From: Paenibacillus sp. 1781tsa1 | Lineage (GTDB): Bacteria > Bacillota > Bacilli > Paenibacillales > Paenibacillaceae | NCBI RefSeq assembly: GCF_024159265.1 | Contig: NZ_JAMYWY010000001.1 | Coordinates: 4,154,001-4,218,000 of the forward strand | Length of the DNA stretch: 64,000 nucleotides | Direction of reading: 5' to 3' | Shown: positions 4,557 through 53,878 of the stretch, piece by piece | Layout of the letters: each line of letters starts with the position of its first letter | Position numbering within the stretch: position 1 is the first letter of the stretch | Translations under genes and position numbers: made by a program | Notes under the pieces: generated by a model | The model's input: the letters and a program-made list of their open reading frames with translations, nothing else | Databases searched by the model: none | Told to the model about the DNA's origin: nothing

Positions 4557-4805
4557 TTATTCAGACACTACTTCCTTCCAGCTCGCTCTATCGCCATAAT
4601 TTGAAGTATTTATAAAGTGTGTTTGTGTCGTGCTGTTCTTTTGATTGCCAGCATAGTAGGAGACAATGTTGTCGATTATAACGGTGTTAACGTAAAACTC
4701 TCCAAACACTTTATAATGTTTTTTCGCCTTACTGATTGTTTCGTTCATATCCGTAGAGAAAAATCTATTATCTGTTTTCCTGTTGTGTGTTTTTCTCACC
4801 GCCAT
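4557..4805 (-). CDS. Hypothetical early protein
   Basis: 82 residues starting MAVRKTHNRK at 4805, behind GGAGGGATAGAA. The N-terminus is very basic; a central helix (NETISKAKKHYKVFGEFYV) and a short beta segment follow. Upstream in-frame ATG codons lack a ribosome site. Could bind nucleic acid through its basic N-terminus, but that is only a guess. Confidence 0.55.
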   Translation of the reverse strand: MAVRKTHNRKTDNRFFSTDMNETISKAKKHYKVFGEFYVNTVIIDNIVSYYAGNQKNSTTQTHFINTSNYGDRASWKEVVSE

Positions 4806-4856
4806 TTCTATCCCTCCGCATCTGGATGAAATCACTCTTTTACTTAATCTTGTAGA

Positions 4857-5027
4857 TCATTCACACATGCTGCCCTTAGATAAGCTCTCCTCATTACGAA
4901 GATAAAGCTTTGTCTCTTTCATAAAATTTCTAACCTCTTCTGCTGTCATGCCTTTATTGTCCTCATTGGCTCTAGTCCAGAAGTATGTAAGGTCACTCAT
5001 TAGCTCTCTTTTTGTTAAAGGCCTCAT
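4857..5027 (-). CDS. Small hypothetical early protein
   Basis: 56 residues starting MRPLTKREL with AGGTGATATAAAA before the ATG. Predicted all-helical, with a pattern (KRELMSDLTYFWTRANEDN..MTAEEVRNFMKETKLYL) typical of a compact helical bundle. It starts 11 bp after the stop of the 5039-5257 gene, so the two are cotranscribed. Function unknown. Confidence 0.6.
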   Translation of the reverse strand: MRPLTKRELMSDLTYFWTRANEDNKGMTAEEVRNFMKETKLYLRNEESLSKGSMCE

Positions 5028-5038
5028 TTTTATATCAC

Positions 5039-5257
5039 CTATTTATTATTTTTTTCCTTAATATATTCAATAACGTGGTCCTTTGCGTCTTTAAGTGTCT
5101 TATGTCCTGACCAAATTTCATGATAACCGTCATAAATATAAATCCTTATGTCAGGTTCGTAATACTTCTTCCATATTCCCCAGAAACGACCCTCTTTTAT
5201 GATACGGTAGTTAGAATCCTCGCTTTGATAATAGCCCTTGTATTTTACGAATTTCAA
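5039..5257 (-). CDS. Small aromatic early protein
   Basis: 72 residues from a TTG behind GGCGGTGG. Rich in Tyr and Trp (YKGYYQSEDSNYRII, WGIWKKYYEPDIRIYIYDGY) with a lysine-rich C-terminal helix (KTLKDAKDHVIEYIKEK). The C-terminal motif K-T-L-x-x-A-K-x-x-(V/W)-I is shared with 5477-5692, so the two are probably paralogues. They are separated by the folded element at 5279-5399. Confidence 0.6.
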   Translation of the reverse strand: MKFVKYKGYYQSEDSNYRIIKEGRFWGIWKKYYEPDIRIYIYDGYHEIWSGHKTLKDAKDHVIEYIKEKNNK

Positions 5258-5278
5258 TTTACCACCGCCTAGAGTTTG

Positions 5279-5399
5279 TAATTAGGAAGTTGTACCCCAG
5301 TCCAACCTGCACTCAGTTTAGCACCCTCATTTTAACCCCATAAGGTATGAGCGGCTTCAGAGGTTCTATCCTCATCACTGTGCCTCGACTTCCTAATTA
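5279..5399 (-). ncRNA. Candidate structured RNA closed by a 12-bp stem
   Basis: TAATTAGGAAGT (5279-5290) and ACTTCCTAATTA (5388-5399) are perfect reverse complements and close a 121-nt segment that is clearly more GC-rich than its flanks. Read on the minus strand, GCACAGU pairs with ACU-ga-GUGC inside the closing stem (plus positions 5377-5383 with 5309-5317). An inner GAGG/CCUC hairpin competes with CUCAU/AUGAG pairings, a switch-like arrangement. It lies between two paralogous small genes and is read through in their direction. A TATAAT (5401-5396) overlaps the stem, so whether the RNA has its own promoter is unclear. I do not recognise a known family. Confidence 0.5.
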
Positions 5400-5429
5400 T
5401 ATTATTTATGAAATGAGTATTTTATGTTA

Positions 5430-5445
5430 TATTCATATATTTATT
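5430..5445. promoter_or_regulatory. Operator-like palindrome copy
   Basis: Matches the recurrent 16-bp early palindrome at 14 of 16 positions. No good promoter is in the usual register here, so it may be a degenerate or auxiliary site. Confidence 0.35.
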
Positions 5446-5476
5446 ATTAAGTAAGTACTCACAAGCCCAAAATCAC

Positions 5477-5692
5477 TTATGAGTAATCTGCCTCTCTTAT
5501 ATTATTTACGTTTTCTTTTATCCACTTCTTTGCTTTAGCTAAAGTTTTGTGGCTTTCTGTCTGGCTTTTAAATTTCTCAATGGCTTTGATATCCCAGTTC
5601 ATTGGCTCCACATCCCATTCATGTTTTGATCCTCCATTATAAATGACATAGCCCATGTATTCGTATAAACCGTCAAACTTAGTCTTTTCCAA
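5477..5692 (-). CDS. Small aromatic early protein, paralogue of 5039-5257
   Basis: 71 residues from a TTG with AAGGAGGGATACAA upstream. Contains YEYMGYVIYNGG, a W-D-V/W-D-I stretch, and a C-terminal helix HKTLAKAKKWIKENVNN that resembles the C-terminus of 5039-5257. It is followed downstream by about 220 bp that hold the folded element at 5279-5399. Function unknown. Confidence 0.6.
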   Translation of the reverse strand: MEKTKFDGLYEYMGYVIYNGGSKHEWDVEPMNWDIKAIEKFKSQTESHKTLAKAKKWIKENVNNIREADYS

Positions 5693-5723
5693 TTGTATCC
5701 CTCCTTATATGGTGATCATTATA

Positions 5724-5966
5724 TCACTTCATGTATGCCGGTACTTGTTTGCCTTGCAGTTCACACTCTTCACGGAAGCGCTGCTTCCACTTCTCGCTAC
5801 TTTCCTTGCGCATTGCTTCTAGCCGAGCAGTTTCTTTTGCAGTGAACTCTGCACAAAGGCGTTCATGTTTAGCGCGCTCATCAGCAAGTCGAACATTGAT
5901 TGCCTCGATTCGAGCCGCTTCTTTTACCGCCTTAATTTCTTTGATACGTTTGAAAAATTTAAACAT
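5724..5966 (-). CDS. Highly charged helical protein
   Basis: 80 residues starting MFKFFKRIKEIK at 5966 with GAGGAG eight bases upstream. Almost entirely Arg/Lys/Glu/Ala with heptad-like spacing, predicted as one long helix or coiled coil. Two cysteines lie in the middle and towards the end. The first gene after a strong promoter with an overlapping palindrome (6002-6044), so probably repressed in lysogeny and made early. The role is unknown; binding to a host protein is possible but not shown. Confidence 0.55.
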   Translation of the reverse strand: MFKFFKRIKEIKAVKEAARIEAINVRLADERAKHERLCAEFTAKETARLEAMRKESSEKWKQRFREECELQGKQVPAYMK

Positions 5967-26876: not shown

Positions 26877-27545
26877 ATGGCAGCACCGAGAAAGACAGCC
26901 AATGCTGAACCTGCAAAAGATGTTGCAGATGAAAGTTCTTTAGAAAAAGAAAAGATGTCGACTGAGATTGAAGAGTTAAAAGCTATGGTTAAACAATTGC
27001 TTGAAGACAAAGTTGCGACTCAGTCAGTCCCTACGACTGTCGAAAAAGTAAAAGACGAGTATTACGATATTGAAGAAGAATTGAATATTAACTCAAATCA
27101 ATTAGTTAAGATTGTAAGTTTGATCGAAGGCGGATTGAACTTAAAGGGTAATTCTCCTCAGCCACTCTACCTTCCAGAGTTTGGTGCTACTCGATCCGTA
27201 ACTTACGAAGAACTGCGAGCTATTTACTACAATCATCCCGAGTTGACTCGCAACGGAGCATACTTCATCTTGAATAAAAACGTTGTTAAAGCTCTCTATC
27301 TGGATTCAGATTATGAAAATATTTTAAACAGAGAGCGACTTGATAAGTTGGTTGATTTGCCAACCGTTGAAATGATGTTTGTTTTAAAAGGTTTGACTAA
27401 AGTTCAAAAAGAGACTTTTATTCAACGATACATTCAAGGAATCAAATCTCAAGATAATCGATTTGGGGATTTCAATAAAATCAAAGCTATCGATGATTAC
27501 ATTGGGAATAGTTTGATTGAGCTGGCAAACCAAGAGCAAAATTAA
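26877..27545 (+). CDS. Head-associated hypothetical protein
   Basis: 222 residues. A low-complexity, Ala/Lys/Glu-rich N-terminal 60 residues precede a compact helical domain (about 75-215: YDIEEELNINSNQLVKIVSL, YEELRAIYYNHPELTRNGA). It lies just after the capsid terminator at the start of the connector genes. Possibly a head-completion or capsid accessory protein; no motif supports a firmer call. Confidence 0.55.
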   Translation: MAAPRKTANAEPAKDVADESSLEKEKMSTEIEELKAMVKQLLEDKVATQSVPTTVEKVKDEYYDIEEELNINSNQLVKIVSLIEGGLNLKGNSPQPLYLPEFGATRSVTYEELRAIYYNHPELTRNGAYFILNKNVVKALYLDSDYENILNRERLDKLVDLPTVEMMFVLKGLTKVQKETFIQRYIQGIKSQDNRFGDFNKIKAIDDYIGNSLIELANQEQN

Positions 27546-37531: not shown

Positions 37532-40500
37532 ATGACTGATTTGAAGATTTTGATTGAAGCTGGTCTCAGCATGGGTTCCAGCGTTAAGAATATCAACGAT
37601 GAAATTAAAGCTTTAGCTAAACATCCCTCTCTCAAATCTTTGAATTTGAAAGTGGATATCGATAAATCATTTATTAAATCGATGAATGAGTTTGTAGCTG
37701 CTAGCAAAGTACTGAGTACTGCATTAGAGCAGCAACAAAAGGTAATTAGTGAGTCAGTTAAGACAACTAAGATGTTGGATGGTTCAATTGAGAAAGTAAC
37801 TCAGAAACAATTAGCAAATGGTTCAATCATCACGCAGACAACGAAGAAGATTAACGAAGAAACAAAAGCTTATTCAGAACAAAAGAAAACTCTACAACAA
37901 CTTGAAAAAGAATTAGACGGGTATTCCCTAGCTAGAACTAGAGCCAACAAGAATAAGCTTGGCGAAATCAATAGTACTACAAATAAATATAAGAATCAGA
38001 CTGGTCAACAAGTTAGTGTCAATGTTGATAATGAAGGTAATGTCAAGAATTACAGTCAGATAACTGACTATCTCAAACAACAGCAAGATGCATTACAAAA
38101 AGAGCAAGCGATAAATAAGCAACGTGAACAAGCTGCTCAACAAGAATATGCTACACGTAAGGCTTTGGCTGAGAAGAGCCTTAAAGAAGAAGAACAGCGC
38201 AATCAGCAGTTTGTTAATCAGTTAAAAACGAGGTTTGCTGAAGAACAGAAAATTGCTCGTGATCGTGATGCATTAGATAAGGCACATTCAGCAGCAATTA
38301 CAGAAAATCTAAACAGGCAAAAAGCTGTTGCTGATATGCAAGCGAAGATTACAGCAGCACAGGCTAGGTTTAAGGGAAATTCATCTGCTGTCGCTGAGCT
38401 AAATGCGTTGAATGCACAATTGGGCAATGTATCGAAAGTAAGCAATTATAAGAATGCATTGACAGAGTTGCAAACTAAATTAACACAGATTACATCTCAG
38501 GCTAAATTAGCTGGTAATGAAACTAGGACACTAGGACAACGTTTTGGTGATGCAGCATCCAAGGTAGCTATGTGGGCAGGTGCAACATCATCTGTATATA
38601 TGATTACACGAGCATTGAGAGACATGGTTAGTGTGGTCGTGCAAGTAGATAGTCAGATGACTCAATTGAAACGTGTAATGGATGAGTCGACAGACTTTGA
38701 GGGCATGTTGAGTCGAAGCATTCAATTGGCAAATGAGTTAGGTAGAAGTATTACAGAAGTAAATGAGAATGCTATTGGATTTGCGAGGATGGGATTCGAT
38801 GAAGATCAGACGATGAACCTTGCAAAGACAACAACGCTATTGCAGAACATCTCTGAGTTAACACCACAGGAATCGGTGGATACATTAACGGCAGCAATGA
38901 CAATATTTAATGTTGAAGCTGGAAAGAGTATTGAAATTGCGAATAAGTTAAATGAAGTAGACAACAACTATGCGGTTACGACGCAGAACTTAGCTCTTTC
39001 ATTGACTAGAGCTGGAGCCAGTGCAAATACCTTCGGAATTTCTATGGAAAAATTGATTGGAGACACTGCGGCAATTACCACTGCAACGCGTGAAAGTGGA
39101 TCTGTAGTAGGTAACTCATTAAAGAGTATCTACTCTCGTGTCACATCAATGGCTAAGTCTGAAGATGTGCTTAAGGGCGTAGGTGTATCAATGCGTGAAA
39201 TGAACGGTGAGGTTCGAGATGTCTCAGATATACTTGATGATTTAGCAGGAAAATGGAATGGACTATCTAAGGAGCAACAACAAAATACTGCCGTAAATCT
39301 CGCTGGTCGATATCAGCTCACTAGATTTTTAGCATTAATGCAAAATTATGACATTTCTGTTCAAGCTACAGAAACAGCCCTTAATTCTCAAGGTTCAGCT
39401 ACACGCGAAAACGAAAAATATATGGCATCACTCGAAGCGCGTATCCAGAAAATGAAAACTGCATGGGAAACTATGTCCCTCGCCTTTGGAGATGCAATAA
39501 TCTCCGACTCAATTGTAACTCTTACCTCCCTCATAGCTTCCATGTTGAACGGTGTTGCTAAAGTGGTCGATGTAGTTGGAGCGCTCCCTGTAATCTTCGG
39601 CGTAGCTAGTGTTGCCCTTCTAGGTCTCCATCTTGGATTCCGTATGCTAATCATTGAAATGACTAAGACTATTGCATCTATGTTTGGACTCACTATTCAA
39701 ACTGGTACTGCTTCAGCAGGTTTAAATAGATTTTCCTTGTCTACCATTGCATCTAAACTATCGCTTATGGGATTATCCGGGGCTGCTAATATTGCTAAAG
39801 TTGCTCTTCGTGGTCTCATGATTGCAACAGGAATCGGTGCCGCTTTTGCTGCATTGGGTTGGGCTATTGAAGGTATTGTTGGTCTCTTCTCTGATGCCAC
39901 TCAAGCAACCGAGGATTTCACCGACAAAACTGAAGCATTAAATGAGAAGCAATATGATCTAGCTAATCTTAAAAAACTCCAAGAAGAGTACGATTCACTC
40001 TCCAAGAAAACCAGTTTGAATTATGATGAAAAATCAAAATTGGCCCAAATCGAAAGTGAACTTTCTTCAAAATATGGAATCACTGTTCAAGGAATAGATG
40101 GACAAACCAAATCTATTCAAGAAAACAATGAAGCAATAAAATCCGCAATTGAACTCAAAGAAGCAGAACTAAAGATAGAACGTGATCGCGCTGAAATTGA
40201 ATACGCTGCAAACTCACGAGACATTGAAAGTAATATTTCTAAGTACAAAGAACAATTAATTGCTTTAGAAAAAAGTAAACAAGCAGCACAAGAAGAATAT
40301 GATTTACGAACAAAGATTCTTAGTCAAACTAGCACATCAGATCCTTCATATGATGCAAATAGTCGTCACGCTCAGAATGCAGCTAAAGCATTACAAGAAG
40401 AATTATCTGCATATGATGAAACTAACACTAAACTTCAAGAGTATACAAATAAAAAAGCACTAATTCTTAAAAATGCTGGTCAAGAATACGTTGATGAGCA

Positions 40501-43500
40501 GGAACGAAACAATGTCAAGATAAGTGGAATGACTCGCAAATTTATTGATATTTATGCTCAGGCTGCTGCTGAAAGCAAAATACCTGCTGATCAGATTAAA
40601 AATAATATCGGTCAAGTTTTTCAGGGTGTTCAAAGTGGCAACATAAAGAATGCTGAACAAGGAATGAAACTCTTAGAGTCCCTACCGGGTGTAGCAAACT
40701 TAACTGCTGAATCCTATAGAAATATGGGTGCCGCTATATCTCAAGTTGACTATGCTCCAGTAGTTGAGGGTGTTGAAAATACTGAGGATGCTGTAGATGG
40801 ATTAGGAGATTCAGCTAATCAAACAGGACAAAAAGTTAGTGAAATGTCTAAGAAACTTGATGAACTATCAGTTTGGGCTACTAATTCCAAAGAGGAAGTT
40901 GAACTTTTAAATAAAGCTCAGTCTGAACTCGCCAAAAAGAATACACTTTCTGCTGACACTATCAAGAAAATGAATGAAAAATATGGTGACTTTATTAAGA
41001 TCACTGGTCTAAGTAAAGATTCTATTTTAAAATTCATAAAAGCAAAAAAAGAAGAGAAAACAGAGTTTATCAATGCAGAGATTAAGAAAACAGAAATAGC
41101 TATCGAAGCTTCGATGAAAAGAATTGCGGCTGTTGAATTAGAGATGAGCGCGCGGCAGAAACTCATTGATCAGATGAAAGAAGACTATTCAGACATTGCT
41201 GGACAAGATCCATTAGAAGATATTAAGACTGAATCCAGAATGGGCGCTGTTAGATCTGCTGGTGGCAAACAAGCTGACTTAACTTATGAAAAAGAAAAAT
41301 TGGCTGAGTTAACTGCAACACTACAGACTTGGAAGAGTATTGGTTCTGACACCAAGCAAATGGTTGAGAATGGCGATAAAGCTGTACAGGATGCAACTAA
41401 ATCCAATGATAAGTCGAATCAATCATATACAGATACCAATGAGATCCTAACGGAAACCCAGAAACAGTTTATTAAATTGGCTGATGCAATCAAAAAAGTT
41501 CAAAATGAGCGCAACACAATGGTTAAGGGTTCTAAAGAGTATATTGCCAGTTTAGAAAAAGAAAAGAAACTCACTGAAGATCAAATTGCTTTAGCCAAAA
41601 AAGCTCTTAAGAACCCCTCTGAATTAGTTTCCACTAAAGTTAAGACGACAACAACTACCTCAGCAAGTGATACTACTTCAGATGCATCTTCTTCTACCTC
41701 CTCTTCTAATGGATCTGGTACAAAGTTAGACACAATGCTTAGTGCAGCACTTGGTATGCAAGGTCAATTCAAATATCAACAAATTGGCGGGAAATTCAAA
41801 GGGACTTTTGAAGAGTTCAAGAAACGTGCTCTTGCTGACTGTTCCCAGTTCGTACAGGAATTCTTTGAAGAGTTCATGGATATTACTCTTCCTCGCACCG
41901 CTGCTCAACAATCCCAACAAGGTACGGCTGTAGCTAAAAAGGATTTGAAAAAGGGAGACCTTATTTTCTTCGAAACCAAAAAAGGCTACGAAGCTTCTCA
42001 TGTTGGTATTTATACTGGTAACGGTAAGTTTATTCAAATGGGTACAAAAAGTGGACTTAGTGAACAGAGTCTAGACAACAGTTATTGGGGGCCAAAATAC
42101 CGTAGTGCTAGACGTATTAATGGTGTTGGCGAATCTACATCAGCTTCCACTCCATCGGTTAATACAAATACATCTGTTACAAAGACTGCGACTACTAGTT
42201 CCGATGGTAAAGTTAAAACTGAGGTTGTTAAAGCCACCCAAAAAGAAATCGATGACGCTGTACGTGACTTAGAGCTCAATCTATCTGCGTGGACTGCCGA
42301 AGTGTATCAGCAGAGTCTTGATATTATTGATGCATATGTAACAAAAACCGACAATGAAATTACAAAACTTCAATCCAAACGCGAACTGTCTGCTAACAAG
42401 CAAAGCCGTTATACACAAGACAGCCCTGAATGGCGTAAAGAAGAAATGTCTCAGAGCAGTTTACTTCAACAAGAGCAGAAGTTGATAGAGCAACAAAGTA
42501 AAGATATTCGCAAACAGTTGATTGATAAAAAAATCACTCAGGGCGAATACGATGCTAAACTTGCTGAGAATAGTGCTAAATGGTGGGATTATCAGTCACA
42601 GATTGATGATAAACGTAAGAGTATTTTTGATAGTCAAATTGCCGCATATGAAACGCAAGTAAAAGCGAACGATGACTCACTGGCGTTGTCAGATGCTAAC
42701 TTAAACCTACTGACTGAAGGTACTGTTGAATACAACAAAGAGTTGCGTAGCCAAATTCCCCTGCTTGAGAACAAGAGCTCCGTTATTGCTAAAGAAATTG
42801 CCTATGTTAAATCACTGTTAACCAACAATAAATTAAACGCTGAGTTGACTGCTTACTACAATGACAAACTTCAAGAACTCAACTTGTCTTTATTAGGTAC
42901 AAATTCTGCCTTAGCTGATGTCAATAAGACTCTTAAAGATATGCGTGAATCTGCCGCTGACAATATCATTGAAGAATATAAAAAAGTTATCGAACAGCAA
43001 CGTGACTTGGCGCTTGAAGTTCTTGATCAAGAAATTAAAAAAGAGAATGAGCGTCACGAGGAACGTACCAAGAATATCGATGATGAACAAAAACAGTTTG
43101 AGAATTATATTAATGCTCGACTCAAAGCATTTGACCGTGAGAATACATCTACTGACTATACAGAAGAACTCACGAAGAAAATGGATGAGCGTCAAAAGAT
43201 ACAGGATAGAATCAATGTTCTCTCTGCTGACACATCAATGTCGGGTAAAGCTAAGCGTAAAGAATTAGAAGAACAACTCGTTGCTATTGATGAGGAGATT
43301 CGTAAATATCAACGTGATCGTGACCGCGAATTGGTTAAACAAGGGCTACAAGACCAACTCGATGACCACAAGAATTACAACGATAAAATCAAAGATGAAG
43401 AAGATAAACAGCATCAAGACGCTCTTGATAAATTGGATGATGAGAAAAAGAAAACTGAGCGTAAATATAAAGACATCTTAGAGGATCAGAAGTATTTCTA

Positions 43501-44317
43501 TAATCTCAAACAAGGCTTGATGAGTAATGATGCAATCGTTGTGACTGCTACTCTTGGAATCATTGGTGGTGAGTATGACAAGTTATTTGCCAACATGAAA
43601 ACTCATATATTTGAGACATCCAAAGAGATGCAGAATCTTTTGGATCAATTTGAGTTGGGCAGATCCGGTTTAGACAAGTTTAAATCAGGTGACTACTCCC
43701 CTACTGAACCGGGAAGCGGTGGTACTAGTAGTGGGAACGGTTCAACTGGTCAAACTGGAACCATTAAAGGCACAACTGCTGCACGTGTAGCTTGGACTGA
43801 GTATCTGAGTAATAAGCAATCTGCTGAGTCGATTAAGGCTGAGATGTCTAAACTTGATAAAGCGTCTTCGCAGTACAAGAATCTTACTCAACAGTTTGAC
43901 TCACTCAAGTCCAAGAATGACCAGTTGCGTTCAGTGTATGGATTCCCAGATGGTAGCTTTAAGGATTTAGTGAATCAGAAGATATTCTCTGCTGAAACTG
44001 GTGGTATGACTCCTGCTGGTATCGGTAAGGAAGGTAAGTTCTTATTAGCTCATGAGAAAGAACTGGTTCTCAACAAATCGGACACGTCAAACGTGTTGAA
44101 GATAATTAATGTAGCACGAGACATGTTTGACAGATTTAAGAGTGGTTTGAGCCTAAACTCTATATCTCCTAAGAGTAACACTGAGTCAAGTAGCACAGAC
44201 AACAGTGTAAGAATTGAGAATGTAACTATCGTTGCTAAAGACACAGATACTGGACAAAGTTTAAGTGACAAATTCTTTGGTGCAGTAAACAAACAATTGA
44301 AAACAAGAATGATTTAA
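37532..44317 (+). CDS. Tail tape measure protein with NlpC/P60 peptidase domain
   Basis: 2,261 residues, similar in length to SPbeta YomI. Long coiled coils make up the N-terminal 330 residues and large parts after about residue 800 and 1570. Residues about 350-660 match the phage tail tape measure core (AMTIFNVEAGKSIEIANKLN, NLALSLTRAGASANTFGISM). Hydrophobic, membrane-like segments follow (VVGALPVIFGVASVALLGLH; IATGIGAAFAALGWAIEGIV). Around residues 1400-1535 lies an NlpC/P60-type peptidase with Cys1437 (DCSQF) and His1490 (SHVGIYTGNGKFIQ), probably used to open the cell wall during DNA entry. Sets tail length as well. Confidence 0.92.
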   Translation: MTDLKILIEAGLSMGSSVKNINDEIKALAKHPSLKSLNLKVDIDKSFIKSMNEFVAASKVLSTALEQQQKVISESVKTTKMLDGSIEKVTQKQLANGSIITQTTKKINEETKAYSEQKKTLQQLEKELDGYSLARTRANKNKLGEINSTTNKYKNQTGQQVSVNVDNEGNVKNYSQITDYLKQQQDALQKEQAINKQREQAAQQEYATRKALAEKSLKEEEQRNQQFVNQLKTRFAEEQKIARDRDALDKAHSAAITENLNRQKAVADMQAKITAAQARFKGNSSAVAELNALNAQLGNVSKVSNYKNALTELQTKLTQITSQAKLAGNETRTLGQRFGDAASKVAMWAGATSSVYMITRALRDMVSVVVQVDSQMTQLKRVMDESTDFEGMLSRSIQLANELGRSITEVNENAIGFARMGFDEDQTMNLAKTTTLLQNISELTPQESVDTLTAAMTIFNVEAGKSIEIANKLNEVDNNYAVTTQNLALSLTRAGASANTFGISMEKLIGDTAAITTATRESGSVVGNSLKSIYSRVTSMAKSEDVLKGVGVSMREMNGEVRDVSDILDDLAGKWNGLSKEQQQNTAVNLAGRYQLTRFLALMQNYDISVQATETALNSQGSATRENEKYMASLEARIQKMKTAWETMSLAFGDAIISDSIVTLTSLIASMLNGVAKVVDVVGALPVIFGVASVALLGLHLGFRMLIIEMTKTIASMFGLTIQTGTASAGLNRFSLSTIASKLSLMGLSGAANIAKVALRGLMIATGIGAAFAALGWAIEGIVGLFSDATQATEDFTDKTEALNEKQYDLANLKKLQEEYDSLSKKTSLNYDEKSKLAQIESELSSKYGITVQGIDGQTKSIQENNEAIKSAIELKEAELKIERDRAEIEYAANSRDIESNISKYKEQLIALEKSKQAAQEEYDLRTKILSQTSTSDPSYDANSRHAQNAAKALQEELSAYDETNTKLQEYTNKKALILKNAGQEYVDEQERNNVKISGMTRKFIDIYAQAAAESKIPADQIKNNIGQVFQGVQSGNIKNAEQGMKLLESLPGVANLTAESYRNMGAAISQVDYAPVVEGVENTEDAVDGLGDSANQTGQKVSEMSKKLDELSVWATNSKEEVELLNKAQSELAKKNTLSADTIKKMNEKYGDFIKITGLSKDSILKFIKAKKEEKTEFINAEIKKTEIAIEASMKRIAAVELEMSARQKLIDQMKEDYSDIAGQDPLEDIKTESRMGAVRSAGGKQADLTYEKEKLAELTATLQTWKSIGSDTKQMVENGDKAVQDATKSNDKSNQSYTDTNEILTETQKQFIKLADAIKKVQNERNTMVKGSKEYIASLEKEKKLTEDQIALAKKALKNPSELVSTKVKTTTTTSASDTTSDASSSTSSSNGSGTKLDTMLSAALGMQGQFKYQQIGGKFKGTFEEFKKRALADCSQFVQEFFEEFMDITLPRTAAQQSQQGTAVAKKDLKKGDLIFFETKKGYEASHVGIYTGNGKFIQMGTKSGLSEQSLDNSYWGPKYRSARRINGVGESTSASTPSVNTNTSVTKTATTSSDGKVKTEVVKATQKEIDDAVRDLELNLSAWTAEVYQQSLDIIDAYVTKTDNEITKLQSKRELSANKQSRYTQDSPEWRKEEMSQSSLLQQEQKLIEQQSKDIRKQLIDKKITQGEYDAKLAENSAKWWDYQSQIDDKRKSIFDSQIAAYETQVKANDDSLALSDANLNLLTEGTVEYNKELRSQIPLLENKSSVIAKEIAYVKSLLTNNKLNAELTAYYNDKLQELNLSLLGTNSALADVNKTLKDMRESAADNIIEEYKKVIEQQRDLALEVLDQEIKKENERHEERTKNIDDEQKQFENYINARLKAFDRENTSTDYTEELTKKMDERQKIQDRINVLSADTSMSGKAKRKELEEQLVAIDEEIRKYQRDRDRELVKQGLQDQLDDHKNYNDKIKDEEDKQHQDALDKLDDEKKKTERKYKDILEDQKYFYNLKQGLMSNDAIVVTATLGIIGGEYDKLFANMKTHIFETSKEMQNLLDQFELGRSGLDKFKSGDYSPTEPGSGGTSSGNGSTGQTGTIKGTTAARVAWTEYLSNKQSAESIKAEMSKLDKASSQYKNLTQQFDSLKSKNDQLRSVYGFPDGSFKDLVNQKIFSAETGGMTPAGIGKEGKFLLAHEKELVLNKSDTSNVLKIINVARDMFDRFKSGLSLNSISPKSNTESSSTDNSVRIENVTIVAKDTDTGQSLSDKFFGAVNKQLKTRMI

Positions 44318-44348
44318 GGAGAGGGTTAACCCTCTCTTCTTTTTATTT
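44318..44348 (+). terminator. Intrinsic terminator after the tape measure gene
   Basis: GAGAGGG and CCCTCTC form a stem with a TTAA loop (44319-44336), followed by a T-rich run. The stem is perfect and GC-rich. Confidence 0.85.
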
Positions 44349-44365
44349 ATCGGAAAGGAATGTGT

Positions 44366-47300
44366 ATGTTAGGAGAAATTGACCGTAAGAAGAAACCTAT
44401 TCAACCACAATACTTTCTGGCTAAACCCAATCGTGAGATTATCAGTAAACTAAGCGAAATCTTCAATGACAATATAAACGTTAAATTGAATGATGTGAGC
44501 GAATTATCATTTTCTCTCCCCTACTTTATTGATAAGCATCACAAGTTGAAGCCTAATAAGAATGTGGAGTTAATCAAAGAGCGATATTTAATCAAAGTTG
44601 TTACTGGGGTTAAAGTTGAATGGTTTATTGTAAATGATATTAGTGATAATCTCGATGATTCAGATGTGATGGAAGTCAAGTGTTATTCGTTAGTACGTGA
44701 GTTATCAGATAAATTGATTAAAAGTTATGAGGTTGAGTCATACGGAGCAGATAAAGTAATTGAAGATATGCTTCGTTTAGGTAATACAATTTGGAATGTA
44801 GATTACATAGATGCAGACTTTAAGTTGAGCAAAAGAGCATTCGAGTTCCCCTCTTCTACTGTACTTGAAGCGATATACTCTATCGCCGAAGTTTATAATG
44901 CTATTGTTACATTCGATACGGATACTCGTACATTGAGTATGACTAAACCAGAATTAACTGGGATCAACATGGGTTTAACCGTTTCATATGGTAAGCTGAT
45001 GAAGAGTATGAGTCGTAATCGTAGTTCAGAGGAAATGGTCACACGTCTCTCCGCTTCTGGCAAAGATGGACTGGGAATCAATAAGGTTAATCCAACTGGA
45101 CAAAACTACATTGAGAACTATGGATATTGGATTTATCCATTTGAACGAGATGCCAATAAAACAGTGATTTCACCAAGTCATTGGATGTCTGATTCACTGT
45201 GCCATGCGCTATTGGATTATGAAGAGTTGGTTGAGAGTAAGACAGGATTGTTCAAACAGTATCTTGAGGAATTAGAAGGCTATGAGACACAATTAAATCA
45301 ACTTAAGATTGATTTGAATAAGCTACAGCAGGACGAAAAAGTTGTTCAGGAAGTAACTCTTGCTCAACAGTTTGGCGACAAGATGTTTTTCGAGAAGTAC
45401 AGTCATAGTGGTAGTACATCGAGAACATTCAAGTTGAACAAAGGATATAACTATGTAGCAATGATTAAAGTTGACTCCTCTTCTGGCTTGACTGTTGCAT
45501 TGAATGGATCTGTGAAGTCAGTAACATCAGGTAGATGGGTAATGTTGGGCAAGTTGAACAATCTTGAGACAACCACAATTACCGTAAATGGATCATCTAC
45601 AGGCGTGTTTATGCAAGTTGCTACGATTTCAATTGAAGAGTATCAGATGGCTGGTAATGATAATGCGATTGTTGAGAGATATAGTTTAGACAATAAAGAA
45701 AATCAGATTAACTTGAAGCAGATTGAAGTAAGTAATAAGTTAAATCAGATTACAGATGTACAGAATCGGACTAAGGTGTTGCAAGTGTTGCTGGATTCGG
45801 AGAACAACTTTACACCTGAACAACTGTATGAATTGAATCCTTATATGATCAATAAAGATTTTAGCGATGATGTGTACATAGATGAGCAAGATTTATATGA
45901 TGCAGCAATGGAAAAGTTCAAGGAGTTGCAAGTTCCACAATTAGCAGTAGAGATCGATATTGTTAACTTTTTAGAGATAATTGAGGAACAGCGCAATTGG
46001 AAAAAGTTAAACCTTGGTGACTTTGTTAATGTTAAATATGAGCCATTGGGGATTGAGTTAACAGCAAGGATAAGTGAGATTAGCTATGACTTTGGTGGAT
46101 CGAGTATTAAGTTAACGTTGAGTAATGCTAAGAATGTTAACGATGAGAGTACGAGATTAGAGAAGTTTTTAAAGGATACAAAGAATACTAGTGTAGTTGT
46201 TGATGTTAACAAAACCAAATGGGGACAAGCCGTAGTTGACTCTTCTGATATGAGTAAATTGTTTGATAATTTTTGGAACAAGATAACCAATCAGATCAAC
46301 ATGAGCATCAATAATACTGTAGAAATTAATAACAAGGGAATTACGATTTCAGATGACAACGATCCGTTAAGATTCCTTCGTTTAACAAACGGGCAAGTGG
46401 GACTCACGAGATCCGGTGGACTCAAATACGAGACAGCCATCTCCGCTGATGGGGTCATCGCTGAGATGGTGCTAGGTAAAATCATTTTAGGGCAACGTGT
46501 GGTTATTGGAGACACAACAGGCGTATTCACTATCGAAGGTTCAAAACTCATGATTGATGATCGCTGCGGTCGACCTGTAGTAAGGTTAGGATTAACTTCA
46601 GAACTGCCTGACGTATTTGGGCTACATGTTAATCGATATGCTTCGAGCAATTGCAATGATAGAACTATTACTAACATATCAGGAATGGATAACTCTAGAG
46701 GATTCTACATCGATAAGATTCGTAACGGAATAACTTCTAATGTATTGGGATTATCGTTGGATGGCAACTTTAGATTGCGTGTTGGTGATGACAATCAGGT
46801 TATCGTCATTAACGAATTCGGGCTTGGTATTGGATCTGATGTGTGGGCCAATGCTCCCTTTAGAGTGGATTATTTTGGTAATTGTTACTTAAATGCCCTT
46901 TTCGCAGATCGAGCTGAGATTAAAAACTCAAAATTCTTAAATGGTGAAATTGAAGGTTCTTCCCTTACATTGCGTGATGGAGATGGCGTATTCAAAATTT
47001 TTCCAAAAATCGGAATGTGGGCTGGAAGAATATCAGAGGGCGCAGAAGATTTCGATAATGCAGCTTTCAGTGTGGATCTCTTCGGAAACCTCAAAGCACG
47101 TAAAGCTAAATTTTATGGTAAAGCTGGAGAACTATTAATAGATACAGATGCGGGTGTTATTGACCTTGATCACTTTGATATGATCAATGTTGGTAAACTG
47201 ATGGCTGAAATGTTAGAGGTAAACACAATTCTTGCAGATGATGGTTACATCAACAACCTCACAGTAAACCGTTTAAAGACTATTGGTAAAGATGCTAATG

Positions 47301-47872
47301 TTGGTCAGTACATCGACTACATTGATATTCAAGATAATTTTCAGCGATATGTAACAGCACAAGTGTCTGCAAAGGAACAAGCAAAAGACTCGCGTAATAG
47401 ACTTCTATTCTGGCAGGACAGTGAAAAACGTATTTTAACTACTGAAAATACAGGTATTATTGCATACTCTTATACGCTCCCCAAAGAAACCATGAAGATT
47501 AAACGTGAAACCACTTTCGAAGGTTCTGGTGATGCTGCTCAGCCTGTAGAGAAAATTGGTACTGGTGATGGCGGTGCCAATGATCGAGCTAAAATGGTCA
47601 ATACCAAATATAATGGTGGATACAAACAGGAGTATAAAGCAAGTAATACTGCTAGATTGAGAAGTATCGACCTCGCAGATGATGGAATACTGATTAAAAG
47701 TGATGGTGGTGACATCAACATTACAATGGATTCGTTCAATGTTCTTGCTAAAAAATCAGTAAAAATTGGCATTGAATCCGGTTCATTCATAGAGATAGCG
47801 CAAAACGGCGATATTAACATTAACTCGACTAGAAATGTTAAAATTAACGGTACTCGCATTGATTTAAACTAA
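44366..47872 (+). CDS. Tail-associated (Tal-like) hub/lysin-region protein
   Basis: 1,168 residues starting MLGEIDRKKKPIQPQ at 44366; the ATG at 44360 would abut GGAAAGG. N-terminal 380 residues resemble the hub domains of siphophage tail-associated proteins (IISKLSEIFNDNINVKLNDV; GDFVNVKYEPLGIELTARIS near 545-575). A coiled coil separates these from a beta-rich C-terminal half with repeated aspartate/glycine turns, likely a fibre. No peptidase motif is apparent to me. Follows the tape measure as expected. Confidence 0.7.
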   Translation: MLGEIDRKKKPIQPQYFLAKPNREIISKLSEIFNDNINVKLNDVSELSFSLPYFIDKHHKLKPNKNVELIKERYLIKVVTGVKVEWFIVNDISDNLDDSDVMEVKCYSLVRELSDKLIKSYEVESYGADKVIEDMLRLGNTIWNVDYIDADFKLSKRAFEFPSSTVLEAIYSIAEVYNAIVTFDTDTRTLSMTKPELTGINMGLTVSYGKLMKSMSRNRSSEEMVTRLSASGKDGLGINKVNPTGQNYIENYGYWIYPFERDANKTVISPSHWMSDSLCHALLDYEELVESKTGLFKQYLEELEGYETQLNQLKIDLNKLQQDEKVVQEVTLAQQFGDKMFFEKYSHSGSTSRTFKLNKGYNYVAMIKVDSSSGLTVALNGSVKSVTSGRWVMLGKLNNLETTTITVNGSSTGVFMQVATISIEEYQMAGNDNAIVERYSLDNKENQINLKQIEVSNKLNQITDVQNRTKVLQVLLDSENNFTPEQLYELNPYMINKDFSDDVYIDEQDLYDAAMEKFKELQVPQLAVEIDIVNFLEIIEEQRNWKKLNLGDFVNVKYEPLGIELTARISEISYDFGGSSIKLTLSNAKNVNDESTRLEKFLKDTKNTSVVVDVNKTKWGQAVVDSSDMSKLFDNFWNKITNQINMSINNTVEINNKGITISDDNDPLRFLRLTNGQVGLTRSGGLKYETAISADGVIAEMVLGKIILGQRVVIGDTTGVFTIEGSKLMIDDRCGRPVVRLGLTSELPDVFGLHVNRYASSNCNDRTITNISGMDNSRGFYIDKIRNGITSNVLGLSLDGNFRLRVGDDNQVIVINEFGLGIGSDVWANAPFRVDYFGNCYLNALFADRAEIKNSKFLNGEIEGSSLTLRDGDGVFKIFPKIGMWAGRISEGAEDFDNAAFSVDLFGNLKARKAKFYGKAGELLIDTDAGVIDLDHFDMINVGKLMAEMLEVNTILADDGYINNLTVNRLKTIGKDANVGQYIDYIDIQDNFQRYVTAQVSAKEQAKDSRNRLLFWQDSEKRILTTENTGIIAYSYTLPKETMKIKRETTFEGSGDAAQPVEKIGTGDGGANDRAKMVNTKYNGGYKQEYKASNTARLRSIDLADDGILIKSDGGDINITMDSFNVLAKKSVKIGIESGSFIEIAQNGDININSTRNVKINGTRIDLN

Positions 47873-49390: not shown

Positions 49391-49771
49391 ATGCGAACCA
49401 AAGTCCAATATGTTGCCCCTTTTGATTCTAACGAGAATATTTACTATGTACGAGATCATTATGGACGTGTGTGGCACTCGATAGGTGAAAACGAAAAAGA
49501 AGCCATTAAGATTTCTAACGGCGCAGAGGAAATAGTGAATTATATAATCTACAATCCGTTTAAACACAAGAATCTTCACAGCTACGACTTTAAGAATCTG
49601 ATTCTCGAAATGTTGGAACAGATGGATTTGGCTAATACATATGAGTACGAAATTGTTTTAGGATGGAAAGGTTACGAGGTGTTTGAGTTTATGAAGCGGT
49701 CTTCCCTCATGCCCTGTGATTTGTTGTTAGAGATTAATAAGTTCAACTTTGGAAAGGTTGGCGGTAGATGA
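49391..49771 (+). CDS. Hypothetical protein in the XRE-divergent operon
   Basis: 126 residues from ATG 49391 with GGAG eight bases upstream. The N-terminal half has alternating strands (VQYVAPFDSNENIYYVRDHY), the second half is helical (LILEMLEQMDLANTYEYEIV). No family recognised. Its stop overlaps the start of the zinc-ribbon nuclease (ATGA), so the two are translationally coupled and probably work together. Confidence 0.6.
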   Translation: MRTKVQYVAPFDSNENIYYVRDHYGRVWHSIGENEKEAIKISNGAEEIVNYIIYNPFKHKNLHSYDFKNLILEMLEQMDLANTYEYEIVLGWKGYEVFEFMKRSSLMPCDLLLEINKFNFGKVGGR

Positions 49772-51279
49772 GCATAAAAGAAAAGTATGTAGAAGTTTCA
49801 CTTGGCGCTAAAAACATTAAACATTTCGAAGAGTTGGGATATGTTATACCTCGCAAAAGGAAATCTGGGAGAACTCGTGTGGAGCGTGGCACAAAAATTA
49901 TAGTAAAGATTGAACATTTGTTAGACACAAGCGAATGCAAACTGACAAAAATATGTGACATCTGTGGTGATGAATCTCAAAACCGGACTTATAATGAAAT
50001 AATATCTAGACGTAATGCTGGAGATGGTTTGGACAGATGCAGAAAATGTGGCTGGAAAAACGGAGCAGATAAGCTTAAAAATAATACTCCCTATAGTAAA
50101 TCGTTTGAGTTTAAGGCGGGAGCTCAACTCACTAAAGAATGGGACTGGAATTCAAACAACAAGAAGCCCTCAGAAGTAAGCTGTGGGAGTAATCACAAAG
50201 TTAATTGGATCTGCGCTGATTGTAAATCTGTTTACTCTATGAGCCCTGCAAATAGATTCCGTGGGAAGGCTTGCCCCTATTGTGCCGAATCAAAATTGAA
50301 TGAGAGCAAATCTCTTTCTGTTTGCTTCCCCCATCTTATAGATAGTTGGGATTATTCCAAAAACAATAACCTATCGCCCGAAAAAGTAAATTCGTGCAGC
50401 CAAAAAACTGCTTGGTGGACTTGTAACGTATGTAACAGTGGATACCTGATGAAGATAAAGGTTAGAGTTAATGCAGCAGGATGTCCTTATTGCGATGGGA
50501 AAAGAGTAAACGAGTCTAATTCGCTCTCAGCTCTATATCCCGCACTATTAAAAGAATGGTTGTATGAAAGAAATGATGAGCTCGGGCTATTCCCAGACAA
50601 AGTAACCTCCAAAAGCGGTAAAAAAGCTTGGTGGAAGTGTTCAACATGTCAACATGAATGGATTTGTAACATTGACAGGCGAACTTGTAGTAAAAGCAGT
50701 TGTGTCATTTGTTCGGGCAAATATTTAAAGAGTACAGAAGAATTCAAACAAGAAGTATACAATCTTACTAAAGGTGACTATCAGGTAACGAGTGAGTACA
50801 AAGGGACTATTAATAAAATTAAAATACTACATGTACATTGCGGTCATCTGTACAGCGTTAAACCTACAGACTTTTTGAGTGGAAAAAGATGTCCATTTTG
50901 CAAACTCAATAAGGGCGAACTCTATATATCAAGGTTTTTGGACTTAAATTCGATCAAAATGGAACGCCAATACTCGCATTCAGACTGCAAATATATAAGA
51001 CCTTTGCCATTCGACTTTGCAATCTTCAACACTCAAGAACAAATACAGTGCCTCATTGAGTATGATGGCGAACATCATTTCAAACCAGTCATGCATTGGG
51101 GTGGAGAAAAAGCATTCAAACTCCAACAGAAAAAGGACAAAATAAAAACCGACTACTGCAAATCCAATAACATTCCACTAATACGCATCCCATATTGGGA
51201 CTTCAAAAACATCGACTCAATACTCACCGAGCGATTGACTGAATTGGGTGTCCTCTCCCCTGCATTGGTCGAAGTGTAA
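49768..51279 (+). CDS. Multi-zinc-ribbon protein with Vsr-like endonuclease domain
   Basis: 503 residues. An N-terminal DNA-binding-type zinc unit (CDICG, CRKCGW) is followed by at least three treble-clef/zinc-ribbon repeats of about 70 residues, each ending in a CPYC-type knuckle (CADC/CPYC, CNVC/CPYC, CSTC/CVIC), then CPFC. The C-terminal 110 residues have LIEYDGEHHF, QQKKDKIKTDYC and IPLIRIPYW, the pattern of Vsr/PD-(D/E)XK endonucleases. Free-standing phage endonucleases of this build are often selfish or homing-like. With a host-type promoter and an XRE regulator next to it, a defence or selfish element is possible. Confidence 0.75.
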   Translation: MSIKEKYVEVSLGAKNIKHFEELGYVIPRKRKSGRTRVERGTKIIVKIEHLLDTSECKLTKICDICGDESQNRTYNEIISRRNAGDGLDRCRKCGWKNGADKLKNNTPYSKSFEFKAGAQLTKEWDWNSNNKKPSEVSCGSNHKVNWICADCKSVYSMSPANRFRGKACPYCAESKLNESKSLSVCFPHLIDSWDYSKNNNLSPEKVNSCSQKTAWWTCNVCNSGYLMKIKVRVNAAGCPYCDGKRVNESNSLSALYPALLKEWLYERNDELGLFPDKVTSKSGKKAWWKCSTCQHEWICNIDRRTCSKSSCVICSGKYLKSTEEFKQEVYNLTKGDYQVTSEYKGTINKIKILHVHCGHLYSVKPTDFLSGKRCPFCKLNKGELYISRFLDLNSIKMERQYSHSDCKYIRPLPFDFAIFNTQEQIQCLIEYDGEHHFKPVMHWGGEKAFKLQQKKDKIKTDYCKSNNIPLIRIPYWDFKNIDSILTERLTELGVLSPALVEV

Positions 51280-51327: not shown

Positions 51328-51351
51328 GATATAGGCAAGGAGTGATTCCAC

Positions 51352-52017
51352 ATGATCTTGAATTTTGACGAATCCGGGAATCTCGGGACTGGCGGCAGAT
51401 ATTTCATTATTGCCGCAATTTGTGTAAAAGACAATATTTCGCCATTGAAGAATGTCATTAAAAAAGCAGTTTTAAAAACAAAAGAGACTTTTCCTAATTA
51501 TTCTGATGTTAATGAAATTAAAGCAAGTCACTCTACTCAAATTATTAAAGACTACTTTTTGAACAAGATTGTATCTAAAGACATTGAAATTAAGTATATT
51601 GTCGCAGATAAACTTCATGTTAAGAAAGCTTTACTTCAAGATGAAAATCTATTATACAATTATATGTTGCAAATTTTGATATCTCCTATTGCACAAAATA
51701 AATCTACAAAAGACTTATTTATTAATTTAGATCAACGTTCAATTAAAGTTAACTCATTAAATTCCTTCTCTGAATATATAAAACTTGAACTTATCTACAA
51801 AAAAGACCTGAATATCAACATTGATGTAAAGTATTATGAATCTCAAAATAGTTATGCAATTCAAGCTGCTGATTTTGTTGCAAATGCAATTTACTCAAAG
51901 TATGAGAAAAATGAAGATTATTTCTATAACATTATTAAGCCTAAAATTACAAATATCGAACTTTTCCCTAGAGGATCTTTTGGTACAGACAAAGTAGTAC
52001 ATTTTAATGCAAGATAG
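51352..52017 (+). CDS. DUF3800 protein
   Basis: 221 residues with AAGGAGTGATTCCAC before the ATG. Starts MILNFDESGN, the hallmark D-E-S-G motif (Asp6, Glu7) of DUF3800, followed by YFIIAAICV. Later come an aspartate in FINLDQRS and the C-terminal IQAADFVANAIYSKYE, both typical. DUF3800 proteins are thought to have an RNase H-like fold with acidic residues, but their activity is not established as far as I know. Structured RNAs have been reported computationally near DUF3800 genes. Here two paralogous RNAs lie immediately downstream, and the gene has its own -10 box. I infer a protein-RNA module. Confidence 0.8.
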   Translation: MILNFDESGNLGTGGRYFIIAAICVKDNISPLKNVIKKAVLKTKETFPNYSDVNEIKASHSTQIIKDYFLNKIVSKDIEIKYIVADKLHVKKALLQDENLLYNYMLQILISPIAQNKSTKDLFINLDQRSIKVNSLNSFSEYIKLELIYKKDLNINIDVKYYESQNSYAIQAADFVANAIYSKYEKNEDYFYNIIKPKITNIELFPRGSFGTDKVVHFNAR

Positions 52018-52028
52018 TCTTTCTCCAC

Positions 52029-52057
52029 TTTACCGAAGTGTTTCATAATGTTATAAT
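52029..52057 (+). promoter_or_regulatory. Promoter of the first structured RNA
   Basis: TTTACC (52029-52034), 17-bp spacer, TATAAT (52052-52057). Predicted initiation falls near 52063, exactly at the 5' side of the RNA's first helix. Confidence 0.6.
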
Positions 52058-52061
52058 ATAT

Positions 52062-52146
52062 ATGCACAAGTAAACCCACTGGTGTCGTGTTAAAACACTG
52101 AAACATAAGTTGCCTGTATGGTAACCGCTCCATTGGTTTTGTGCAT
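52062..52146 (+). ncRNA. Structured RNA 1 next to the DUF3800 gene
   Basis: 85 nt. Helices: P1 AUGCACA/UGUGCAU (52062-52068 with 52140-52146); P2 AAACC/GGUUU (52072-52076 with 52135-52139); P3 UGGUG/CUCCA with one U-U mismatch (52080-52084 with 52128-52132). Hairpin GUGU-UAAA-ACAC spans 52087-52098 and hairpin GUUGCC-UGUAU-GGUAAC spans 52109-52125. P3 and the two hairpins meet in a three-way junction. The second RNA, 40 bp downstream, has the same plan with different but compensating pairs. The 5' end matches a promoter start. Confidence 0.8.
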
Positions 52147-52173
52147 ATTGTTATTTAATTAACGTCTTGGGTA

Positions 52174-52179
52174 TATAAT
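52174..52179 (+). promoter_or_regulatory. -10 box of the second structured RNA
   Basis: TATAAT whose predicted start is near 52186, one base before the first helix of RNA 2. The -35 is weak (TTATTT at 52151-52156 with a 17-bp spacer). Confidence 0.5.
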
Positions 52180-52186
52180 AAGTACT

Positions 52187-52268
52187 GATGGAGTAAACCC
52201 ATTGTAGTCGTGTGCAAGCATTGAGCATATAAATCAGATGTGTTCTGGTCGCTACACTGGTTTCCATC
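52187..52268 (+). ncRNA. Structured RNA 2, paralogue of RNA 1
   Basis: 82 nt. P1 GAUGG/CCAUC (52187-52191 with 52264-52268); P2 AAACC/GGUUU (52195-52199 with 52259-52263); P3 UGUAG/CUACA (52203-52207 with 52252-52256). Hairpin GUGU-GCAA-GCAU spans 52210-52221 and hairpin AUCAGA-UGUGU-UCUGGU spans 52233-52249. Unpaired bases are shared with RNA 1: AGU between P1 and P2, CAY, UC, UGAnnCAUAnAA, the loop UGURU and CG. An intrinsic terminator follows at 52276. Confidence 0.8.
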
Positions 52269-52275
52269 TAAAGTA

Positions 52276-52304
52276 AGTCACCTTCTTATTGAGGGTGGCT
52301 TTTT
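52276..52304 (+). terminator. Intrinsic terminator closing the RNA pair
   Basis: AGTCACCTTC (52276-52285) and GAGGGTGGCT (52291-52300) pair in ten positions including wobble pairs, followed by four T residues, an A and more T. Confidence 0.85.
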
Positions 52305-52352
52305 ATTATCTTCCTAATTTCCCCTTCCAAGATACCCTCTTTTCTAATACCG

Positions 52353-53848: not shown

Positions 53849-53878
53849 TGTCCAAATTTTATATTGGAGGTGATTTGG

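Follow-up and report, generated by a model that had tools for sequence, protein, structure and literature searches.

A DUF3800 gene and its twin structured RNAs in a prophage: a recurrent gene-RNA pair of phages, satellites and plasmids

Introduction

Structured RNAs have been reported computationally beside DUF3800 genes, with no known function. What, then, are the two small RNA-like elements that follow a DUF3800 gene in a prophage of a soil bacterium, and what might they do for the protein beside them? We examined this in a window of 64,000 nucleotides (positions 4,154,001 to 4,218,000 of contig NZ_JAMYWY010000001.1, Paenibacillus sp. 1781tsa1, assembly GCF_024159265.1), part of a 7.08-Mb genome. 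A preliminary description proposed that the two elements share one fold, kept by compensatory changes, and that with the protein they might form a toxin-antitoxin-like, antiphage or RNA-guided module. We find that the shared fold is real and that the gene-plus-RNA pair recurs in mobile elements of many bacteria. The most likely reading, at about 50%, is that the RNA binds and restrains a predicted nuclease, although none of our evidence shows binding or toxicity.

The locus in the prophage

Tape-measure and minor tail proteins at 37532-47869 and a Dit-like tail protein at 53864 flank a cargo island that encodes an ankyrin-like protein, an XRE-type regulator, a homing-endonuclease-like protein, the DUF3800 protein, a SHOCT-domain-like protein and an acetyltransferase. 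The homing-endonuclease-like protein (49768-51279, 503 aa) lies directly 5' of the DUF3800 gene and has three DUF4379 treble-clef zinc fingers and a DUF2726 nuclease-like end, like phage homing endonucleases. No Cas protein was recognised among the genes tested around the locus, and a nucleotide search of phage records gave no match. The features of the module are as follows.

51338-51344, + strand: AGGAGTG, likely ribosome-binding site of the DUF3800 gene, 7 nt before the ATG at 51352
51352-52017, + strand: DUF3800 protein, 221 aa, with a predicted RNase HII-type fold
52029-52034, + strand: TTTACC, -35-like box of the RNA1 promoter, spacer 17 (a score reached by 1% of shuffles)
52052-52057, + strand: TATAAT, -10 box of RNA1, with the predicted start at P1
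52060-52148, + strand: RNA1, consisting of P1, GUAA, P2 and a three-way junction (P3, UAA, P4)
52109-52125, + strand: P4 hairpin of RNA1, GUUGCC-UGUAU-GGUAAC
52174-52179, + strand: TATAAT, -10 box of RNA2, without a good -35
about 52184-52272, + strand: RNA2, the same fold with a different P1 and P4
52233-52249, + strand: P4 hairpin of RNA2, AUCAGA-UGUGU-UCUGGU
52277-52307, + strand: intrinsic terminator (9-bp stem, T-run) closing the pair (score 17.1; best of 10 shuffles 9.8)

P1 is AUAUGCACAA/UUGUGCAUAU in RNA1 (52060-52069 with 52139-52148) and GAUGG/CCAUC in RNA2 (52187-52191 with 52264-52268). Each RNA folds better than its shuffles (z -2.7 and -2.4), but this is modest evidence on its own, and the reverse strand of RNA1 folds about equally well, so folding energy does not decide the matter.

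A family of RNAs with a three-way-junction fold

The comparative evidence does decide it. DUF3800 proteins 55-63% identical to this one were found in five other loci, and each of these has two copies of the RNA directly 3' of the gene. A MAFFT alignment of 13 RNAs gave a model in which P1 is followed by GUAA and by P2, which has a bulge and runs into an invariant G-C pair; P3 (UGUG/CACA-like), UAA and P4 with its UGU loop follow before the chain returns into P2. In these 13 RNAs 90.7% of base-pair cells pair, against 71.9% in shuffles, 20 of 29 pairs have double-sided changes, and sliding the pairing by one base gives 29%. We drew this structure after looking at the same sequences. With 26 RNAs, 28 of 29 pairs have double-sided changes. 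With 38 RNAs, 91.8% of cells pair (63.0% shuffled), 305 cells have double-sided changes (100 expected) and the covariation score is 0.718 (0.232 shuffled); the paired percentage, double-changed cells, pair types and covariation score exceed all 500 shuffles, while slid pairings fall to 32-41% paired. Many of these RNAs are members of the model used to align them, and alignments fitted to a model lean towards its structure, so the more independent tests are the 13-RNA alignment and the searches of diverged loci, of 399 genomes and of loci selected by protein alone that are described below. RNA1 scores 84.1 and 77.3 bits with our two models (R1 and R2) and RNA2 84.4 bits with R1, but the models include these sequences. 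Chance, or unrelated repeats that happen to fold, is refuted as an explanation by these tests.

P1 shows 32 distinct 5' arms among the 38 RNAs, yet it pairs at 87%. The conserved unpaired surface is GUAA between P1 and P2, UAA in the junction and UGU in the P4 loop; the near-invariant unpaired bases are UAA after P1, UAA in the junction and two U of the P4 loop. Selection on a shared fold with a conserved unpaired surface, as the preliminary description proposed, is therefore strongly supported, although UC, CG and CAU, which it listed among mostly unpaired constant positions, are at least partly paired. Its suggestion of an RNA-guided system is disfavoured: no hypervariable, guide-like segment is seen in the 38 aligned RNAs, judged by eye and without a search for target matches, most variation is in paired stems, and P3 loops can be shared between phages whose P1 differs.

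The twins are old. In the first group of loci, copy-1 RNAs of different loci are more alike (67%) than the two copies of one locus (56%), and copy 2 is more diverged (57%). In the second group copy 1 agrees across loci at 74% and copy 2 at 86%, against 58% within a locus. These are mean identities and not a tree, but the two copies are not recent duplicates, which suggests distinct or complementary roles. Two copies are not obligatory, since single-copy loci exist, the Listeria and Streptococcus elements among them.

The RNA is tightly linked to DUF3800 genes

A covariance model found the RNA beside DUF3800 genes in Listeria phages, Streptococcus satellites, other Bacillota, and Ligilactobacillus and Gammaproteobacteria plasmids. 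Searches that used the RNA alone support the link. An exact P4 pattern in 2.9 million viral contigs hit 16 stretches, of which 15 have a DUF3800 ORF beside the hit; the 16th is a false hit on several type I-F CRISPR-like hairpins (CTGCC-N-GGCAG, positions 100-220 of a phage contig), perhaps a mini-array. The wider model, applied to 399 genomes of the phylum, hit five genomes, and in all five the RNA lies beside a DUF3800 ORF, one of them truncated. Of nine plasmid or phage loci selected by protein alone, seven have the RNA: loci in Ligilactobacillus and Listeria plasmids, Streptococcus satellites, and Acinetobacter, Thiothrix and Pseudomonas plasmids carry it at 38-49 bits, whereas a Fusobacterium and an Acinetobacter phage locus do not. 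Two further genomes with diverged DUF3800 have twins, and a third has one copy on each side of the gene. Weak R2 hits in two other loci (E 0.07, 0.29) were not used, and a weak model hit within the window at 27305-27389 (13.3 bits, E 0.36) was judged to be chance.

In 300 genomes of the family all four close DUF3800 genes have the RNA, while three genomes have an RNA without DUF3800 within 5 kb. Such an asymmetry is expected of an antitoxin, but it rests on few genomes, the comparison joins two searches that we took to draw the same genomes, and two other, more distant DUF3800 genes in the sample have no detectable RNA. In two same-genus genomes (1501-1592 of stretch L003 and 1458-1548 of stretch L004) an orphan RNA copy without DUF3800 occupies an apparently shared locus, more weakly in L004 (22.9 bits), and is followed by a small hydrophobic ORF region with a sub-threshold BsrG (type I toxin-antitoxin) match. 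In one genome (stretch L078, 6253-7962) a truncated DUF3800 with an intact RNA (80 bits) lies directly beside genes that look like a MNT-HEPN toxin-antitoxin pair.

Promoters, terminators and gene order

Predicted start sites fall at P1 in 21 of 30 RNAs (7.7 expected) and a terminator follows within 90 nt in 28 of 38 (3.5 expected). The promoter and terminator scores are our own and only their contrast with shuffled sequence is used. In Bacillota the RNA mostly lies 3' of the gene, behind its own promoter and before its own terminator, unlike canonical type III toxin-antitoxin loci. In Acinetobacter and Thiothrix plasmids, however, the order is TATAAT, RNA, P1 stem plus T-run forming a terminator, and then DUF3800, which starts 14-22 nt later. 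This is the order of type III toxin-antitoxin loci (PMC5086642) and of RCd22-abiF (PMC12373285), and it would make more RNA than protein, which suits an inhibitor.

The terminator before the gene in these two plasmids, the promoters at P1 and the possibility that twins are two regulators could also point to a cis-acting control element of the DUF3800 gene (attenuator, riboswitch or 3' stabiliser), or to a trans-acting sRNA for another target that travels with the gene. We consider this unlikely. The position of the RNA varies between 5' and 3', so one cis mechanism cannot serve all loci, and linkage across two phyla makes an unrelated passenger unlikely.

In nine of nine phage loci tested an endolysin gene lies near the module on its DUF3800 side, commonly a site for cargo genes; in the window itself the module lies instead among tail genes.

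The DUF3800 protein has a predicted RNase HII-type fold

The protein matches only PF12686 (E=9e-13; 49.6 bits, cut-off 21). AlphaFold2 gives a confident model (pLDDT 89, pTM 0.87), and the 13 PDB matches with E<=0.001 in a Foldseek search are all type-2 RNases H (RNase HII/H2/H3; E 1.7e-6 to 2.2e-4 for RNase HII, TM about 0.41-0.56). Sequence profiles do not connect the families, as there is no PF01351 match and hhalign gives a probability of 0.4%, so only an RNase HII-like fold is claimed and not membership. D6-E7-S8-G9, E55, K57, D127 and D174 are invariant over 14 proteins. D6-E7 in strand 1, D127 at a strand end and D174 in a helix occur in the order of the RNase HII acidic residues (DEVGRG..VDAE..TRD) and make a candidate active site, the residue equivalence being inferred. 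An RNase H fold with a catalytic rearrangement was predicted earlier for DUF3800 (PMC10910872). PADLOC has no match for the protein.

DUF3800 proteins also accompany Cas12a2 (V-A2) and some type VI-F loci (PMC10910872, PMC12669027). In this context the RNA might be an obligatory cofactor, a scaffold or sensor with which DUF3800 forms the active effector of a defence or element-competition nuclease. The near-invariant unpaired surface and the two orthologous, distinct RNA copies kept in two lineages are in agreement with such a role, and an RNA required for activity would leave most of the signals seen here. The lack, judged by eye, of a guide-like segment, the orphan RNAs and the RNA-terminator-gene order in the two Gammaproteobacterial plasmids speak against it, and we hold it to be the less probable reading.

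Relation to known RNAs and RNA-protein modules

No Rfam 15 family matches the RNAs, and a permissive scan gave only chance hits, although the same tool found DUF3800-I (RF02969), DUF3800-VII (RF02967) and DUF3800-IX (RF02968) beside other DUF3800 genes. In one Rfam accession block only VII, IX and I occur between DUF3268 and EGFOA-assoc-1, and the family may yet be one of the other DUF3800 motifs of Weinberg et al. (2017). The core of the new family (UAAGC..UGU..GCCG) resembles that of DUF3800-I, which has UUAAGCG-uac-UgUAA-gua-CGCC, that is, the same junction UAA, a P4 with UGU loop and the GCC return, and Gammaproteobacterial members of the new family (GCGUUC-UGUAA-GGACGC) look intermediate. 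DUF3800-I has a separate 5' hairpin instead of the closing P1 and GUAA, and the twin orthologous copies are found here. Our model aligns to it in register at only 8.9 bits, which is suggestive only.

The close parallel is AbiF/RCd22 of a Clostridioides difficile prophage (PMC12373285). RCd22 has its own promoter and terminator, holds two copies of its motif (abiF RNA motif RF03085), sits between a holin gene and abiF, and neutralises its toxin by direct binding. AbiF is an Abi_2/AbiD-F family protein linked to Cas13 and not a type-2 RNase H fold, and no RF03085 match was found at our RNAs. Type III systems (ToxIN, CptIN, TenpIN) likewise pair a nuclease with an RNA, but the protein fold differs, the structure search giving an RNase HII rather than a ToxN-type protein, and the partner here is one or two autonomous three-way-junction RNAs, usually 3' of the gene as in the window, rather than an array of short repeats cut by the toxin.

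Our findings suggest a two-component ribonucleoprotein module, carried as cargo by phages, satellites and plasmids, in which a predicted RNase HII-fold nuclease is partnered by a small RNA usually made from its own promoter. We infer that the RNA binds the nuclease through the GUAA, UAA and UGU surface and keeps it inactive, as RCd22 does for AbiF and ToxI for ToxN. Loss or consumption of the RNA, for example when another phage shuts off host transcription, would free the nuclease to cut RNA or RNA-containing duplexes and stop the growth of the infected cell or of cells that lost the element; two copies would supply excess antitoxin or two binding modes. We found no binding, toxicity or phage-defence data for DUF3800, and type-2 RNases H would ordinarily act on RNA/DNA hybrids or on ribonucleotides in DNA rather than on free RNA. 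The toxin-antitoxin-like or antiphage module of the preliminary description thus remains an inference, but a better grounded one. If the RNA proves to be an antitoxin, it is a further phage-borne case beside AbiF/RCd22 with a different nuclease fold, and because DUF3800 also occurs with Cas12a2 the answer bears on how nucleases came under RNA control. More tentatively, there may be a widespread and so far unrecognised class of RNA-neutralised nuclease systems in at least two phyla, in which RNase HII-fold DUF3800 toxins are each held by a cognate three-way-junction RNA and DUF3800-I is a branch of the same superfamily.

It is interesting to note the company that DUF3800 genes keep. A second, longer DUF3800-like protein (388 aa, YIDESGNTG; 4578-5741 of its stretch) is encoded close to the twin-RNA locus of Paenibacillus cellulosilyticus. 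In an Acinetobacter pittii plasmid the RNA-DUF3800 unit lies next to a reverse-transcriptase-family gene and near VapBC, and on a Ligilactobacillus plasmid three Rfam salivarius-1 RNAs (1775-2228 of that stretch) lie just upstream of a DUF3800 gene. In one further genome a DUF3800 gene lies between two stretches of CRISPR repeats (CRISPR-DR2), with no RNA of this family.
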